A DNA stretch of 5,892 bases from Alphaproteobacteria bacterium (lineage in GTDB: Bacteria; Pseudomonadota; Alphaproteobacteria; Sphingomonadales; Emcibacteraceae): NCBI GenBank assembly GCA_013152615.1, contig JAADGA010000110.1, forward strand, positions 1-5,892. The letters run 5' to 3'. A model generated the notes under the pieces. That model was not told where the DNA came from, did not search any database, and worked only from the letters and a program-made list of their open reading frames with translations. This document shows positions 364 to 5,892 of the stretch, in pieces. Both the position numbers and the translations under genes were made by a program. How positions within the stretch are numbered: position 1 is the stretch's first letter; the number at the start of each line of letters is the position of its first letter.

Positions 364-389
364 CTATACTCTCTGGTGAGAGGATATAG
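364..389 (+). promoter_or_regulatory. Imperfect hairpin in the ligase/regulator gap, covering the regulator's Shine-Dalgarno
   Basis: CTATACTCTCT (364-374) can pair with AGAGGATATAG (379-389) around a GGTG loop. Nine pairs are Watson-Crick, one is G-U (370/383) and one is a mismatch (369/384). No T-run follows on either strand, so it is not a normal intrinsic terminator. The right arm contains AGAGGA (379-384), the only Shine-Dalgarno-like sequence before the ATG at 397. If the RNA folds this way, ribosome access to the regulator gene would be reduced. It could equally be a DNA operator dyad. This is seen in sequence only; no function is shown. Confidence 0.45.
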
Positions 390-396
390 TGGCATA

Positions 397-1074
397 ATGA
401 CCGCGAAACGCATATTGATTGCCGATGATCATCCGCTTTTTCACGAGGCGCTGAAGGGCGTGGTGGGCGAGATATTCCCGGATGATTGTCAATATTTATG
501 CACGGTCAATGTCAGTGAAACATTGCGGGCACTGGATCAGCGGGACTTTGATCTGATTTTACTGGATTTGAACCTGCCGGGGGCGGAGGGCTTTTCCTGT
601 CTGGTCTCGGTCAGGAAACGGCAGCCGTCGGTGCCGGTGGTGATTGTCTCGTCAACCGATGATGTTATGATTGTCCGGGAAAGCTTTTCCTATGGGGCGA
701 TGGGCTACCTGCCTAAATCCTCGTCGCAACAGGTGATGGAAAATGCCATTCGGCTGGTGATATCCGGCAGCATTTATATTCCGACCGAGGCCCTTGGTTC
801 TTTCGGCGGTCTGGCTGTCGGCGCACAGGAAACCGGGGGGTCACGGGCGCCCCGGGCGCTAAAGGATAACGGCGGCATGGCGGCGCTGACCCCGCGCCAG
901 CTTGCGGTGCTGGCGCTGCTGGCCGAGGGCAAGGCCAACAAGATTATCGCTTATGAACTCGGCATCAGTGAAATCACGGTCAAGGCCCATGTCTCCGCCA
1001 TCCTGCGTAAACTCGGGGTCAGCAACCGCTTGCAGGCGGTGCTTGTCTGCCGGGATATGGCCGGAAAAAGCTGA
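397..1074 (+). CDS. NarL/FixJ-type (LuxR-HTH) response regulator
   Basis: The product is a 225-residue cytoplasmic response regulator of normal family length. The receiver domain spans about residues 4-125, with acidic pair Asp10/Asp11, phosphoacceptor Asp57 in LILLDLNLPG, conserved Ser85 after VVIVS, and Lys107 in YLPKS. A Gly/Ala-rich linker (about 133-161) leads to a C-terminal LuxR/GerE helix-turn-helix (164-221: LTPRQLAVLALLAEGKANKI, ISEITVKAHVSAILRKL). I chose ATG 397 over the in-frame GTG at 376 because AGAGGA (379-384) lies 12 nt before it, nothing resembling a ribosome binding site precedes 376, and the receiver fold begins right after Met397. The gene follows the acyl-CoA ligase by 40 nt and converges, with 24 nt between stops, on a NahK/ErcS-type kinase that is its likely phosphodonor. 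By analogy with ErbR-like regulators near ErcS-type kinases it may activate quinoprotein or catabolic genes; this is inference. Confidence 0.93.
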   Translation: MTAKRILIADDHPLFHEALKGVVGEIFPDDCQYLCTVNVSETLRALDQRDFDLILLDLNLPGAEGFSCLVSVRKRQPSVPVVIVSSTDDVMIVRESFSYGAMGYLPKSSSQQVMENAIRLVISGSIYIPTEALGSFGGLAVGAQETGGSRAPRALKDNGGMAALTPRQLAVLALLAEGKANKIIAYELGISEITVKAHVSAILRKLGVSNRLQAVLVCRDMAGKS

Positions 1075-1098
1075 GGGACAAGTGCCGGGTACTCGGAC

Positions 1099-2481
1099 CT
1101 ATTCAACTGAAGACAGCAGATGCTGAATCAGGGCGTATAGTGCTGCCGGAGCCACCGGTTTGTGAATCACTGGCAGATTTTTCGCCGCCAGCATTTTTAT
1201 CAATGTCGGCTCACGGTCACTGGTGATGATGATTGCCGGCACCAGGTCGGTAAATTCGGCCTGAATTTCCCGGATGGCCGCAATGCCGCTATGGCCGCCG
1301 TCTAGATGATAGTCAGCAATGATCAGTTCCGGGGTCTGGTCGTGGTCAATAAGCTGTTTGAGGCAAATGTCACTACAGGTGCCGGTGATGATAGTGCCGC
1401 CCCATTTGCCGAGCAGCGCGGCCATGCCGTCAAGCACATCTTCATCATTATCAATCACCACAATGCTGCGGCCATCAAGCCCGCCTGGCAGAGTAATAGC
1501 GGCGGGCTGGGGCCGGATGATGTCGTTCCTATCCCCCGGGCGCAGCGTGATATTAAAGGCTGACCCCCGGCCGACGACCGACCTGACCGTGATATCTGCT
1601 GCCAACAGCCCGGCAATGCGCTGCACGATCGACAGGCCAAGGCCAATGCCGCGGCCACCGGCAGTATAATCCTCATGGACCTGAATAAATTCCCGGAAAA
1701 TATCATCAAGGCGGTTTTGTCTGATGCCGATACCGCTATCGACCACTTGCAGGATAATATTATCTCCCCGTGTCCGGCAGCCGATTACGACCCCGCCTTT
1801 GCGGGTATAGCGGACGGCGTTACTGAGGAAATTGCGCAATATGGTTTCGAGCAGCCGCGGGTCGCTATAGACGACATTTGTGGTCGGCACCAGCCGTATT
1901 CTCAAGCCCTTCTCACGTCCGGTCTGGATATAATCCGGCACCACCCGGTCGAGCAGATCCTGAAGTTTAAAATGACAGAATGCCGGGATGATGCCGCCGG
2001 AATCGAGCTGTGAAATATTAAGCAATACCCCGAGCAGATCATCCAGAGCCGCCAGCGAATTTTCAATGCGCTCGACATAACGGCTATTTTCCGCACCGAT
2101 GTTTTTGGTGGACAGGGAGCCGGTAAACAGGCGGGCGGCATTGAGCGGCTGGCGCAGGTCATGGCTGGCGGCGGCGAGAAATTTTGTTTTGCTGATATTG
2201 GCTGCCTCAGCCTGTTTTTTGGCGATTTGCAGCTTGTGCTCAATTTCTGTGCGCACCGCCAGTTCGGTCATCAGTCGCCGGTTCAGATCGCTCAGTTCAT
2301 TGGTGCGCTGATTGACGGTTTCTTCCAGTTTGATCGCGGTCTGAAAAATGGTGAAGCTGTCCTGTTGCTGGTCCATTTTCTGTTCCATCCGGTCCATCAA
2401 CACCTGAACAGTTTTATTCAGCCGGGCATTTTCCATGATCAGCCGCTTTATGTCATCAGCGCTCAGCCGGTGGTCGGTCAT
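1099..2481 (-). CDS. nahK: Hybrid sensor histidine kinase/response regulator, NahK/ErcS family
   Basis: This 460-residue protein has no transmembrane segment or signal peptide, so it is a soluble hybrid kinase. An N-terminal predicted coiled coil (about 10-98) replaces a sensor domain. The dimerisation/phosphoacceptor domain has its H-box at FLAAASHDLRQPLNA (His107). The ATPase domain has an N-box (LRNFLSNAVRYT, Asn217/Asn221), G1 box VDSGIGI (248-252) and G2 box GGRGIGLGLSIV (275-286). A C-terminal receiver (about 338-457) has Asp344/Asp346, phosphoacceptor Asp390 in IIADYHLDGG, Thr420 and Lys441. The HDLRQPLNA H-box and the kinase-REC architecture match the NahK/ErcS family, which includes Pseudomonas aeruginosa PA1976 (NahK/ErcS'). 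The ATG overlaps the TGA of the upstream FIST gene (ATGA), and GGGGA lies 6 nt before it, so the two are translationally coupled. With no sensor of its own it should take its signal from the FIST protein. No HPt domain is visible in the window. The symbol rests on family and synteny, not on demonstrated NO response. Confidence 0.9.
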   Translation of the reverse strand: MTDHRLSADDIKRLIMENARLNKTVQVLMDRMEQKMDQQQDSFTIFQTAIKLEETVNQRTNELSDLNRRLMTELAVRTEIEHKLQIAKKQAEAANISKTKFLAAASHDLRQPLNAARLFTGSLSTKNIGAENSRYVERIENSLAALDDLLGVLLNISQLDSGGIIPAFCHFKLQDLLDRVVPDYIQTGREKGLRIRLVPTTNVVYSDPRLLETILRNFLSNAVRYTRKGGVVIGCRTRGDNIILQVVDSGIGIRQNRLDDIFREFIQVHEDYTAGGRGIGLGLSIVQRIAGLLAADITVRSVVGRGSAFNITLRPGDRNDIIRPQPAAITLPGGLDGRSIVVIDNDEDVLDGMAALLGKWGGTIITGTCSDICLKQLIDHDQTPELIIADYHLDGGHSGIAAIREIQAEFTDLVPAIIITSDREPTLIKMLAAKNLPVIHKPVAPAALYALIQHLLSSVE

Positions 2482-3635
2482 GGATATTCCCCGGAATGCT
2501 CCCGGCCAATGGCGACGCAGCAGAAAGAATTATTCATGTGGATAGTGTTATATTGCTCACCAAAGGTGGCCAGGCCGATGACGTTATTTGCCATATAAAG
2601 CCGGGAGATGTCGGCGATCAGCCCCCGCTCTTCGCAGATCATCTTGCGGGCGGCACAGTCACAGCCCAGAACCAGTACCGGCGGGCCGATTTCCGCGTGG
2701 ACAGTGTCAAACAGCCGGGCGGTACTGGTGATCAGGTCGGCGGGCCGGGCAATGGCCCCGACAACCCCCTTGCCAATGGCACAGGCAAACCGGATGGTCT
2801 GATTTTCCTGATTTACTTCGGCCACGCCGCGCGAATAATATTTTCCACCGATTTTCATCAGGATCGGATGGTTGCTGCATACGGAAATATTCAGATCCCG
2901 CTGGTTTATCCCGCACAGCCGGGCATATTCGGCGGTCGCTGGCAGGCCGTTGATCTCACTGACAATGCGGCTAACCGGGTCGGCTTCGGTAATCACCGCG
3001 CGGGCATCACCGGCGACATAATGATGGGTGTAATGAACCCGGAATGGCAGACTGGTATGGATCAGGATAATAATCGCCTTGTCCTGTCCAAAGCCGTCGT
3101 CATCAAACAGGCTGGTTTTTTTCTGGTCCCAGTTATCCGAGGTGGAGCCACCAACGAGCGAAATATCGCCCAATTGACTGCCAATGGCGGCGGTAACCCG
3201 TTCCTCGGCATTGCTTAGACCGTCAATCAGCATGAAGGCAAAGCTGTTATGGCCGTTGGCACCCGGGATATTTTCCTTCAGTTCGGTAATCAGTTGTTGG
3301 CCCAGATCAATACCGTCCTGAATTCTGAAACGGCTTATGGTACTTATTGTGCGGGTGATAATGCTGAAGTGAGCTTTCGGCAGGGCGACGGCGGTGATGC
3401 TGTCTTCCCGGTAGCCAAGCGGGGTAATTTCCCCGACAGTGGTGCAGCCAATGAGCGGGATCGGGCCAAACTGCCGCCGCAGTTCCCGTTCCAGCCGGGG
3501 CAGATTATAGTTGGGAGAGCAGAAAAACAGGCATAATGCCGGGGATTTATCGCTGCTGCACAGCCCGCGATAAAGCTCCCGGACGGCCTGCTGCTCGTCC
3601 GGTGATATTGATACGGCCCGCTTGATAATGGTCAC
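2478..3635 (-). CDS. nosP: FIST-domain signal sensor, NosP-like partner of the kinase
   Basis: The protein has 385 residues and no membrane segment. A FIST_N domain covers about residues 33-215 (SPALCLFFCS, LIGCTTVGEI at 61-70, LVGGSTSDNW at 160-169) and a FIST_C domain about 220-377 (VLGCDCAARKMIC and the near-terminal GLATFGEQYNTIHMNN). In P. aeruginosa the FIST protein NosP (PA1975) lies next to NahK (PA1976), binds heme and nitric oxide, and modulates NahK autophosphorylation; the same gene pair and order occur here. Whether this copy binds heme cannot be read from sequence. Twelve cysteines are present, with Cys325/Cys327/Cys334 clustered in FIST_C. Translation starts at GTG 3635: AGGAGG (3647-3642) lies 6 nt before it, and no alternative start has a comparable site. 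The TGA overlaps the kinase ATG. The aldehyde dehydrogenase gene ends 77 nt upstream on the same strand, with a possible terminator between. Confidence 0.88.
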   Translation of the reverse strand: MTIIKRAVSISPDEQQAVRELYRGLCSSDKSPALCLFFCSPNYNLPRLERELRRQFGPIPLIGCTTVGEITPLGYREDSITAVALPKAHFSIITRTISTISRFRIQDGIDLGQQLITELKENIPGANGHNSFAFMLIDGLSNAEERVTAAIGSQLGDISLVGGSTSDNWDQKKTSLFDDDGFGQDKAIIILIHTSLPFRVHYTHHYVAGDARAVITEADPVSRIVSEINGLPATAEYARLCGINQRDLNISVCSNHPILMKIGGKYYSRGVAEVNQENQTIRFACAIGKGVVGAIARPADLITSTARLFDTVHAEIGPPVLVLGCDCAARKMICEERGLIADISRLYMANNVIGLATFGEQYNTIHMNNSFCCVAIGREHSGEYP

Positions 3636-3684: not shown

Positions 3685-3715
3685 AAAAACCCGGTGAGGA
3701 CAGGGTCAGTCCTCA
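3685..3715 (-). terminator. Possible intrinsic terminator at the end of the aldehyde dehydrogenase gene
   Basis: Reading the minus strand, TGAGGAC (3715-3709) pairs perfectly with GTCCTCA (3701-3695) around a 7-nt loop. CCGGG follows, then five T (3689-3685). The first arm includes the dehydrogenase stop codon (TGA, 3715-3713). The stem is short and the T-run starts five bases after it, so termination is probably partial. If real, it separates the dehydrogenase transcript from nosP-nahK. The remaining 3636-3684 would then have to hold a nosP promoter; I see only a weak candidate there (TTGCGG, 16 nt, TAAACT). Confidence 0.42.
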
Positions 3716-5218
3716 GGCCATGATGCAGACGGATTTCGTTTCCAGATACAGATCAAGCGATTCCTTACCCAGTTCCCGGCCAAATCCCGATTGTTTATAG
3801 CCGCCAAACGGCATCACCACATCGAGAATATTATGGCAGTTTACCCACACCGTTCCGGCCTTGATTTTGGGAATAATATTGATGATATTGCCGACGTCCC
3901 GGGTCCAGATACTGGCGCCGAGGCCATAGACGGTATCATTGGCGAAGCTGGCAATGTCACTGACATCGCTATAGCGCTGAACACATAGCACCGGACCGAA
4001 AATTTCTTCGCGGACCACCTTCATCTCGCGATTGGTATTGCACAGCAGGGTCGGCTCAACGAAATAACCTTCATTGCCGCTTCTGCCACCACCGGCGACG
4101 ACCTCGGCACCCTCACGGCGGCCACTGTCAATATAGCCCATCACCCGGTCAAACTGTATCTGTGAGACCAGCGGATTGATCATATTTTCCGGGTTGAGGC
4201 CGACGCCGATTTTCATGGTGGCGGTTGCCGCAGCCAAGCCGTCAACCACCTGGTCATAGAGGCTGTCAGGGACAAACAGGCGCGAGCCGGCACAGCAGGT
4301 CTGGCCCTGATTAAAGAAGATGGCGCTGGCGGCACCGGGAATGGCAATATCAAGGTCGGCATCCGGCAGAATGATTGCCGGAGATTTGCCGCCAAGCTCC
4401 ATGGAGACTTTTTTCATGGTGTCGGCCGCCGCCTTGACAATGATTTTGCCGACTTCGCCGGAGCCGGTGAACGCGATTTTATCGACATCCGGATGGGCGC
4501 TTAACGCCGCCCCGGCGGTATGGCCATAGCCCGGAACGATATTAACCACTCCGTCCGGAATCCCGGCCTGACAAATAAGCTCACCCAGATAGAGCGCACT
4601 CAGCGGCGTTTCTTCCGCCGGTTTCAGGATTACGGTGCAGCCGGTGGCGAGCGCGGGCCCGAGCTTCCACGCCGCCATCAGCGCCGGAAAATTCCACGGA
4701 ATAATCTGTCCGACCACGCCGACCGGTTCCTTCAGGGTATAGCCGAAAAATTTGGCATCGGGTGCATACGGCACTGACAGCGGCAGGATACTGCCCATGA
4801 TTTTTGTCGGCCAGCCGGCCATATAACGGATGGTATCAATGGCGAGCTGAATATCAACGGCGCGGGCGATGGCGACATTCTTGCCGTTATCAATCGATTC
4901 GAGTTCGGCCAGAACATCGGCATTCTCTTCCATCAGATCAGCCAGACGATGCATGACTTTCTCCCGCTGCCCGGGCTGCATCCGTGACCACGGACTGTCT
5001 TCAAAGGCGGCCCGTGCCGCCTTGACCGCGCGGTCAATATCCTCCCGGTCGCCCTCGGCAACCGATATAATGACCTTGCCGGTCGCCGGGTCAAGGGTAT
5101 CAAAAGTTTTGCCGCTGGCGGCATCGACCCAGTGGCCGTTCAGAAGAATTTTACGCGGAGATGAGATAAATTCCCGCGTTTTCGCATTTAAATTACCCGG
5201 ATATCCTGTTGTCGCCAT
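3713..5218 (-). CDS. NAD(P)-dependent aldehyde dehydrogenase, phenylacetaldehyde dehydrogenase-like
   Basis: This is a 501-residue class of aldehyde dehydrogenase, full length for the superfamily and cytoplasmic. It would oxidise an aldehyde to the acid with NAD(P)+. Visible catalytic parts are Asn176 in PWNFP, Lys199 in ILKPAE for cofactor binding, the FTGSGEVG nucleotide loop (250-257), general base Glu274 in MELGGKS, nucleophile Cys308 in FFNQGQTCCAGSR, and Glu405 in EEIFGPV. RYMAGWPTKI followed by the LKEPVGVVGQIIPWNFP block is typical of StyD/PadA-type phenylacetaldehyde dehydrogenases, but betaine-aldehyde or general alkanal dehydrogenases remain possible; family motifs do not fix the substrate. 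The ATG at 5218 is preceded by GAGGAG 8 nt upstream. The gene is divergent from the qhpA remnant/qhpD, and aldehyde is the product of amine dehydrogenase, which makes it a natural second step. No frameshift or missing catalytic residue is seen. Confidence 0.93.
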   Translation of the reverse strand: MATTGYPGNLNAKTREFISSPRKILLNGHWVDAASGKTFDTLDPATGKVIISVAEGDREDIDRAVKAARAAFEDSPWSRMQPGQREKVMHRLADLMEENADVLAELESIDNGKNVAIARAVDIQLAIDTIRYMAGWPTKIMGSILPLSVPYAPDAKFFGYTLKEPVGVVGQIIPWNFPALMAAWKLGPALATGCTVILKPAEETPLSALYLGELICQAGIPDGVVNIVPGYGHTAGAALSAHPDVDKIAFTGSGEVGKIIVKAAADTMKKVSMELGGKSPAIILPDADLDIAIPGAASAIFFNQGQTCCAGSRLFVPDSLYDQVVDGLAAATATMKIGVGLNPENMINPLVSQIQFDRVMGYIDSGRREGAEVVAGGGRSGNEGYFVEPTLLCNTNREMKVVREEIFGPVLCVQRYSDVSDIASFANDTVYGLGASIWTRDVGNIINIIPKIKAGTVWVNCHNILDVVMPFGGYKQSGFGRELGKESLDLYLETKSVCIMA

Positions 5219-5416
5219 TGCTCTTGCTCCTCTTTTGCTCCGGTGAATATTATTGCCGTGATCACCATATCGTAGCAGATTATTTCATGATTGGCGATCA
5301 CAGGAAATTAGACCTTGGCATCAGGCCGGATTACGGAAAAGTCGATAAAATGCTGTTTAACTTGATGTTATTACAGGAAATCCATCCTGAAACAAATCTG
5401 GAGTATCGCCCGCCAT
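5219..5416. other. Intergenic region upstream of the aldehyde dehydrogenase gene
   Basis: About 200 bases, more AT-rich than the genes around them, that should hold the minus-strand promoter of the dehydrogenase. I find no convincing -35/-10 pair; TAATAT on the minus strand near 5250 is an isolated -10-like match. Visible items are a direct repeat ACAGGAAAT (5300-5308 and 5373-5381), an 8-bp palindrome GTGATCAC (5258-5265), and the dyad TGAT-N5-ATCA (5288-5300). The plus-strand open frame over 5209-5418 overlaps the start of the dehydrogenase gene and matches nothing I recognise, so I do not call it. If the qhpA deletion reached here, this stretch may contain the junction. Confidence 0.5.
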
Positions 5417-5431
5417 GATACTATAGTATCA
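5416..5431. repeat. Perfect 16-bp palindrome, candidate operator
   Basis: TGATACTATAGTATCA is its own reverse complement over all 16 bases. It is flanked by CATG-type sequence on both sides (5414-5417 and 5433-5436, the second displaced by one base). It lies between the divergent dehydrogenase and qhpD genes, at the left edge of the recognisable qhpA remnant. A perfect 16-mer palindrome is expected about 0.1 times in a window of this size. It could bind a dimeric regulator such as the LuxR-type protein in this window. It also reads in frame with the qhpA remnant (DTIVS), so it may be coding debris. Confidence 0.4.
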
Positions 5432-5675
5432 GCATGCCGCGCTGACATTGCTCTGAGTACGGGCCGGTATAAGGTCGCTGTCGGACAAGCAACGGCGGCT
5501 ATAATCGCGTATGATCAGCTTGATTTTGTGACAGGGATCCCTGAAATGACGATTGCACGTCCGGGCGGCGGCAGGAGATATGGTGTCGACAAAGCTCATT
5601 GGTTTGTGGTGGTGGATCGTGGCGGTTCGGCGGTGGAATTTGCTCTGCGCCCCCAGCAATAGAAAAGGAAATTGA
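5417..5675 (+). pseudogene. qhpA: qhpA remnant: 3' end of quinohemoprotein amine dehydrogenase alpha subunit
   Basis: One frame (5366-5662, no convincing start) encodes GRYKVAVGQATAAIIAYD, then QLDFVTGIPEMTIARPGGG. From memory this lines up with the domain III/IV boundary of the Pseudomonas putida alpha subunit, which reads GQREVAVG, AVYDKVEEVKVVPAFSIARI in the same order and spacing. The intact protein is near 490 residues, with two CXXCH hemes in its N-terminal part; no CXXCH occurs here and roughly the first 350 residues are missing. After IARPGGG about 90 further residues are absent, yet a C-terminus-like IVAVRRWN (P. putida IVTVQRWN) appears at 5616-5639 in the next frame. That frame ends in TGA at 5673-5675, directly abutting the qhpD ATG (TGAATG). 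This fits a qhpA-qhpD operon whose first gene lost its 5' part, an internal segment and its frame. The left limit is approximate. An alternative is a 38-residue ORF (5546-5662), which I consider incidental. Confidence 0.62.
5665..5670 (+). promoter_or_regulatory. Shine-Dalgarno of the qhpD-like gene
   Basis: AAGGAA lies 5 nt before the ATG at 5676. The site is intact although the gene in front is wrecked, so the maturase can still be translated if a transcript reaches it. It lies inside the last codons of the ancestral qhpA frame, as usual for coupled genes. Confidence 0.6.
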
Positions 5676-5892
5676 ATGCCCGCTGAATTGCAGTATATTT
5701 CGCACAACGCCCATGATGTTACGGTTGGGGACCAACGAATATTATTTCATGTCCCGACGACGTCGCTGTTTGATCTCGATGATATTTCCGGTGATATTCT
5801 GGACCTGTTCAAGGAAAAGAATCTGGTCTGTCTGGATGATATGGTCGCCCGGTTCGAGGGTCGTTACGCCCCCGAACAGGTGCAGGATGTCA
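5676..5892 (+). CDS. qhpD: QhpD-like radical SAM peptide maturase, N-terminal part (3' partial)
   Basis: The first 72 codons run off the right edge. The segment QRILFHVPTTSLFDLDDISGDILDLF (broken here as QRILFHVPTTSLFDL, then DDISGDILDLF) followed by DDMVARFEGRYAPEQVQDV resembles the N-terminal PqqD-like peptide-recognition region of SPASM radical SAM maturases, specifically the quinohemoprotein amine dehydrogenase maturase QhpD. QhpD forms the intrapeptide Cys-to-Asp/Glu thioether links in the small gamma subunit QhpC, in the cytoplasm and before export. The CX3CX2C cluster motif would lie beyond the window and cannot be checked. ATG 5676 is supported by AAGGAA 5 nt upstream and by homology starting a few residues in. 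Its position just behind a qhpA remnant matches the known qhpA-qhpD order and strengthens the call. Other SPASM maturases with similar N-termini are the main alternative. Confidence 0.68.
   Translation, partial: MPAELQYISHNAHDVTVGDQRILFHVPTTSLFDLDDISGDILDLFKEKNLVCLDDMVARFEGRYAPEQVQDV

Follow-up and report, generated by a model that had tools for sequence, protein, structure and literature searches.

The window, by which we mean the whole stretch of DNA analysed here, is 5892 bases long and represents the entire contig C110; the draft genome to which this contig belongs comprises 272 contigs with a total of 2.1 Mb and is 83% complete. From its left end it contains a response regulator gene (376..1074, plus strand), a hybrid histidine kinase gene of the NahK/ErcS-like type (1099..2481, minus strand), and a NosP-like FIST-domain gene (2478..3635, minus strand; 362 bits compared with a cut-off of 450). 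These genes form a conserved left flank, and the response regulator gene occupies the same place in the three relatives whose stretches extend that far. The region 376-3635 carries a NosP-like nitric-oxide sensor gene, a kinase gene and a response regulator gene, all of them conserved neighbours of an amine dehydrogenase operon. An aldehyde dehydrogenase (ALDH) gene follows (3713..5218, minus strand), which is divergent from the former operon; the nearest models for its product were those of phenylacetaldehyde dehydrogenase, matched below the cut-off. The remainder of the window holds a promoter-region box, AGACCTTGGCAT (5310..5321), an operator-like, perfect 16-base palindrome, TGATACTATAGTATCA (5416..5431), two pieces of a qhpA remnant on the plus strand (a main piece of 44 codons ending at GGGR, 5444..5575, and a C-terminal tail in a different frame, 5612..5641), and the start of the maturase gene qhpD (5676..5891, plus strand), which is open for 72 codons and then cut by the contig end.

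The qhp cluster specifies the quinohemoprotein amine dehydrogenase QHNDH. As described in PMC7876137, qhpA, qhpB, and qhpC encode the subunits, qhpD, qhpE, qhpF, and qhpG function in maturation, and the genes lie in one operon, the order and arrangement of which are variable. QhpD is a radical-SAM enzyme that forms three thioether bonds in QhpC while the leader is held, and QhpG is inactive without QhpD. The same source reports that QhpD performs a single turnover and cites its co-encoding with the substrate in one operon as consistent with this (PMC7876137).

The qhpA remnant and the operon site

Directly in front of qhpD, a plus frame of 98 codons (5366-5662) is open until its stop codon. 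A sequence-only reading had interpreted it as the remnant of an amine dehydrogenase alpha subunit gene, qhpA, and had proposed a profile search and an alignment to related genomes, both of which bore out this assignment. When the translation of 5453-5659 was compared with the QhpA model TIGR03908, residues 3-41 aligned with profile positions 353-393 of 510 (E 7.5e-4, 18.1 bits), and a search of the genome with the same profile matched the remnant at 5420-5575 (E 0.002). As the whole-protein cut-off is 274 bits, the frame does not encode a full member of the family, but is homologous to a part of QhpA. BLAST comparison with 11 same-genus QhpA proteins revealed identities of 41-59% (E 4.8e-10 to 2.5e-7) in alignments of 40-57 residues, and at the DNA level the remnant is 62-72% identical to qhpA of ten relatives across 100-112 bases. 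The P. denitrificans QhpA, which has a solved structure, gave a weak match (E 0.22), and a Pfam search of the frame yielded zero matches. The similarity exceeds chance and identifies 5444-5575 as the middle of a qhpA gene.

The frame contains no CXXCH heme motif, two of which are expected in the N-terminal domain of QhpA, and its single ATG (5546) falls within the homologous part, with none upstream of it. The absence of heme motifs and of a credible start was confirmed, and, as had also been claimed, the gene has lost its heme domain as well as some 80-90 residues close to the C-terminus. The proposed extent of 5417..5675 had to be revised: the qhpA piece is real at 5444-5575, but 5416-5431 is the promoter palindrome, and past the GGG the open frame is not QhpA, the tail being found at 5612-5641 in another frame.

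QhpA proteins form two types, which are separate clades in a tree calculated without the remnant, as it offers too few columns. On the basis of synteny and BLAST scores, the remnant was assigned to the first type as a putative member; the scores were 41-49 bits for first-type QhpA and at most 39.7 bits for the second type, which is a modest gap. An additional QhpA-like gene (G009:C62, L071 3627-4946), which is cut at the contig end and encodes a product 31.7% identical to the C40 QhpA described below, is as similar to the remnant as are the first-type QhpA sequences (55% over 40 residues).

The gene order qhpA, qhpD, qhpC, qhpB was found in 11 same-genus genomes, with qhpA directly before qhpD, and the remnant sits at the qhpA-qhpD site of these operons, where the relatives hold a full qhpA. 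ALDH genes that are 78-83% identical to that of the window and divergent from a TonB-receptor gene (TBDT) were present in 11 stretches, comprising nine long stretches of those genomes, G012, and the second contig of G013. The genes next to ALDH follow the order of the window as far as the stretches extend, i.e. nine stretches include NosP, eight the histidine kinase, three the response regulator, and one the acyl-CoA ligase. Because the ALDH, NosP, and kinase flanks are the same as those of the operon in the relatives, the site can be identified as the native site of the first qhp operon. Compared with the first-type operon of, for example, Emcibacter sp. OFTM17, the window has the same flanks, the box, the palindrome, and the place of qhpD, but the TonB-receptor gene and the core promoter motif are missing, and hardly anything of qhpA is left. 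The earlier proposal that a deletion had brought the remnant next to the ALDH gene was correct with regard to the deletion of most of qhpA; however, the ALDH gene is the normal neighbour of the operon in the relatives, and the intervening TonB-receptor gene was also lost.

Two deletions in front of an open qhpD start

In the relatives, the gap between the ALDH and TonB-receptor genes contains the box AGACCTTGGCAT, a palindrome around GATACTATAGTAT, and, about 20 bases further on, the motif TTTGTCTAGGTTGGC. Pattern scans detected the box exactly in 10 of the 11 regions (in G010 it is one base off), and the palindrome and the motif TTTGTCTAGGTTGGC in all 11. The window retains the box (5310-5321) and a perfect palindrome (5416-5431), the latter left over from the promoter of the deleted operon and the single such site in this genome, whereas the third motif, the core promoter motif TTTGTCTAGGTTGGC, is absent from the window. 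The QhpA piece DIALSTGRYKVAVGQATAAIIAYDQLDFVTGIPEMTIARPGGGR (5444-5575) starts twelve bases past the palindrome; in nine relatives this distance is 3573-3742 bases. The comparison shows a first deletion of about 3.6-3.7 kb, by which the core promoter motif, the TonB-receptor gene, and most of qhpA were removed.

Past the GGG, the same nine relatives carry 108-117 further codons, whereas in the window the similarity to QhpA stops within the open frame. In another plus frame, 5612-5641 translates to IVAVRRWN, which resembles IVTVQRWN near the end of QhpA. In tail alignments the qhpA end was chosen in 9 of the 11 relatives (the exceptions being G015 and G001), and the mean score across all 11 was matched by none of 300 shuffles; the scores for single relatives were unmatched by any of 200 shuffles in three cases and matched by 4 to 70 of them in the other eight. 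As the tail is read in another frame, the alignment shows a second deletion of about 250 bases, which removed most of the last domain and shifted the frame. The pN/pS values of the main qhpA piece, a short stretch, were 0.47-0.70 in comparison with the 11 relatives, the median among the relatives being 0.39, and the piece is under weak codon constraint.

As two deletions are found at the native operon site, the qhpA piece is classified as a pseudogene and, taken alone, is an ordinary one. That it could instead be a short working gene, in which a small QhpA-derived protein is translated before qhpD, is suggested by the 98-codon open frame immediately in front of qhpD, but this can hardly be credited in view of the missing ATG before the homologous part, the location of the QhpA tail in another frame, the weak constraint, and the full qhpA at the same place in relatives. 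Most likely the remnant has no role other than to contribute sequence to the untranslated qhpD leader. A complete qhpA and TonB-receptor gene might also have been collapsed or mis-joined during assembly, as the genome is an 83% complete draft in 272 contigs. We regard this as very improbable, because two separate joins would be required, one of them shifting the frame, because the retained piece is diverged and weakly constrained, and because the genome yielded no other match to the first QhpA type.

The visible part of qhpD (5676-5891) matches the N-terminal domain of the QhpD family (TIGR03906 positions 1-62 of 467, E 7.7e-14). For these 72 codons, a short stretch, pN/pS was 0.15-0.42 in comparison with 13 QhpD genes, and the median among the others was 0.24 without G017. 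Their product is 60-80% identical to other QhpD proteins, the median among the others being 79%, and it forms a long end branch of 0.35 in the tree. As far as visible, qhpD appears not to be a pseudogene, though it is more diverged than usual. A promoter scan found 2 candidates, compared with 1.3 expected from shuffles, i.e. no enrichment.

No match to the remainder of qhpD, in which the radical-SAM core (CxxxCxxC) and the SPASM part are expected, was obtained in this assembly. When 5.8 billion proteins were searched for the full-length QhpD of this species, the best among the 120 listed of 2707 matches was P0006, with 76% identity over the 72 residues of the window, and a protein database search with the 72-residue query matched only the query itself. 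In G013, the operon is followed by a further gene; when this was used to search for the contig downstream of the window, this genome gave a single match, to a homologue of 28% identity on C264.

The second gene set and the distribution of maturation genes

A second, divergent qhpA-qhpC-qhpB set is present in the genome, which shows that this enzyme family has not been lost. Two more QhpA matches were found, one on C40 (profile positions 5-361, 369.5 bits) and one on C214 (458-510). The C40 QhpA is a diheme protein with CSGCH and CARCH, exceeds the TIGR03908 cut-off, and groups with the second type in the QhpA tree. C40 and C214 presumably carry one qhpA gene, with a gap of about 96 profile positions between the contigs. 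The possibility that the window, C40, and C214 contain pieces of a single qhpA was rejected: C40 and the window overlap at profile positions 340-361, differ in sequence there, and have no common 15-mer. On C214, qhpA is followed after 13 bases by qhpC, then by qhpB and another aldehyde dehydrogenase gene. The QhpC on C214 (PF08992, E 1.8e-40), the only QhpC match of the genome, has the conserved cysteines, which are the same as those of the other 15 sequences compared, and the conserved tryptophan. The canonical arrangement with qhpD beside qhpC is not present, as this qhpC follows qhpA, and the sole QhpD match of the genome lies in the window. The clusters of Paracoccus denitrificans and Pseudomonas putida, as described in PMC7876137, contain the same genes as found here; in contrast to them, the first-operon qhpA is a scar, the surviving set is devoid of qhpD, and qhpD, qhpG-F-E, and the structural genes are located on separate contigs.

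C40 also carries genes for a TonB receptor, an AraC-type regulator, an FAD oxidoreductase, a metallohydrolase, and a LuxR-type regulator. The AraC-type regulator (G000:C40, L036 3965-4960) scored 247 bits with the NCBIfam model of FeaR, above the cut-off of 199. A FeaR-type regulator together with a phenylacetaldehyde-dehydrogenase-like ALDH may be a hint at aromatic amines as substrates.

Second-type sets, with no qhpD between qhpA and qhpC, were found in 12 of 15 same-genus genomes. No such set was found in the remaining three (G003, G004, and G006; completeness 64-85%), two of which, G003 and G006, have its neighbouring genes. In G015, the second-type qhpA (G015:C80:70-1296) contains one in-frame TAA. 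QhpD above the cut-off was detected in 11 of the 15 genus relatives, every time in the first operon, and was not detected in G002, G003, G012, and G014. The first-operon contigs of G012 and G014 end within qhpA; G012 is 99% complete and has the second set.

QhpG was found in 11 of 19 genomes searched, this genome included. The search covered 11 genus relatives and left out G012-G015; G001 and G004 (62% and 69% complete) were without a match. In all nine loci of relatives examined, qhpG-F-E adjoin the second-set LuxR gene. Their location in this genome is C32, where they are not next to the LuxR gene; qhpF and qhpE are open. Here, qhpG consists of two overlapping frames (G000:C32, L096 546-1882) with a break near C32:1290, which is either a genuine frame shift or an assembly error.

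Solo qhpD genes were also found. G010 contains one besides its operon copy. This gene (L080 10890-12377) is nearly the same as the operon copy, with end branches of 0.018 and 0.024, and adjoins a gene with weak matches to NrfE/CcmF-type heme lyases; no scar of qhpA, qhpC, or qhpB was detected next to it (best match E 0.11). G017, which belongs to another genus of the same family, encodes only one QhpA, which is of the second type and accompanied by qhpC and qhpB; its single full qhpD adjoins qhpG-F-E at a distance of about 137 kb from this set. In Emcibacteraceae bacterium OB4, qhpD lies about 2.3 kb before qhpG-F-E; the 10 kb examined contained no qhpC, which could be located in the other 6.6 kb of the contig. 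The solo qhpD genes of G017 and OB4 belong to the same QhpD clade, and their products are 75-76% identical to OFTM17 QhpD. Both are found in the same stretch as qhpG-F-E and have no adjoining qhpA or qhpC, and G017 has its second-type structural set elsewhere. They differ from the window in that they adjoin qhpG-F-E and not the ALDH site.

Elsewhere, qhpD seldom occurs apart from qhpC: among the best 80 of 436 qhpD loci in named genomes, qhpC was found within 1 kb in 75. As for the other five, two contigs end immediately behind qhpD, one contig has a length of 4.7 kb, one qhpC is 4.9 kb away, and one locus is that of OB4. Class-wide, in 289 genomes, qhpC was present in five besides this one, and qhpD was adjacent in four of them and on another contig in one (G228). 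QhpA-like genes whose products greatly exceed the family cut-off, with 566-572 bits (G040:C57:99770-101233 and G046:C1:331547-333010), occur in two genomes without a QhpC match and without QhpD above the cut-off.

QhpD function in trans or decay of the system

The two-deletion scar destroyed qhpA and left the start of qhpD open, and we somewhat favour the explanation that qhpD has been kept because it is needed in trans for maturation of the small subunit of the second set. The loss of the first enzyme's qhpA would have been tolerable, whereas the loss of qhpD would not, and qhpD could have outlived the qhpA of its own operon because the second set depends on it. One QhpD would serve the QhpC of both enzymes, by binding the QhpC of the second set at its similar leader and introducing the thioether crosslinks before QhpG, QhpE, and QhpF act.

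Several results argue for this explanation. The visible part of qhpD is constrained according to its pN/pS values, while the qhpA piece is only weakly so. The second set is without qhpD both in this genome and in the 12 of 15 genus relatives that have it. QhpD above the cut-off, detected in 11 of these 15, resides in the first operon each time, and qhpG-F-E adjoin the second-set LuxR gene in every relative's locus examined. G017 possesses only the second-type set and a single, distant, full qhpD. Furthermore, the QhpC proteins of the two types start similarly and share four cysteines as well as the C-to-W region.

Other results argue against it. Only 72 codons of qhpD are visible and no match to the rest was obtained in the assembly, this start is diverged and has a long end branch, the core promoter motif is gone with the promoter scan at the level of shuffles, and qhpG on C32 is in two frames. 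In addition, G012 has the second set and no QhpD above the cut-off, although its first-operon contig ends inside qhpA. If the promoter loss, the divergence, and the qhpG break are real losses, the lineage would be abandoning the system. This is the main rival explanation: the entire amine-dehydrogenase equipment of the lineage would be decaying, with qhpA broken first, qhpG frame-shifted, and the start of qhpD next in line and not yet broken, and no function in trans would be needed. The two qhpG frames, the lost core promoter motif, the long end branch, and the missing rest of qhpD would all fit such a decay. Nevertheless, we consider it rather unlikely, because the 72 codons are open with pN/pS values of 0.15-0.42, because the qhpA pieces, qhpC, and qhpB of the second set are open, as are qhpF and qhpE, and because a lone frame break may be erroneous in a draft genome.

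Titles and abstract starts of the literature were searched, most subscription papers being outside the scope, and within these limits no description was found of qhpD used in trans, of a separated maturase, or of a split of QhpD and QhpG-F-E between two enzyme gene sets.

For the genus as a whole, the arguments seem evenly balanced as to whether two divergent QHNDHs share one split maturation kit, with QhpD encoded in one operon and QhpG-F-E by the other, such that neither set would be self-sufficient. The deletion would then have had to spare QhpD, which would show that QhpD acts in trans on a QhpC encoded elsewhere. The retention of qhpD, with the only qhpC found in the assembly at another location, suggests that co-encoding of the pair is not essential, and the same layout suggests that one maturase may recognise two gamma subunits. 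The reading of QhpD acting in trans contrasts with the link between single turnover and co-encoding that is drawn in PMC7876137. It also calls for caution in annotation, as the absence of qhpD from a structural set does not necessarily mean, in this genus, that the set is broken.
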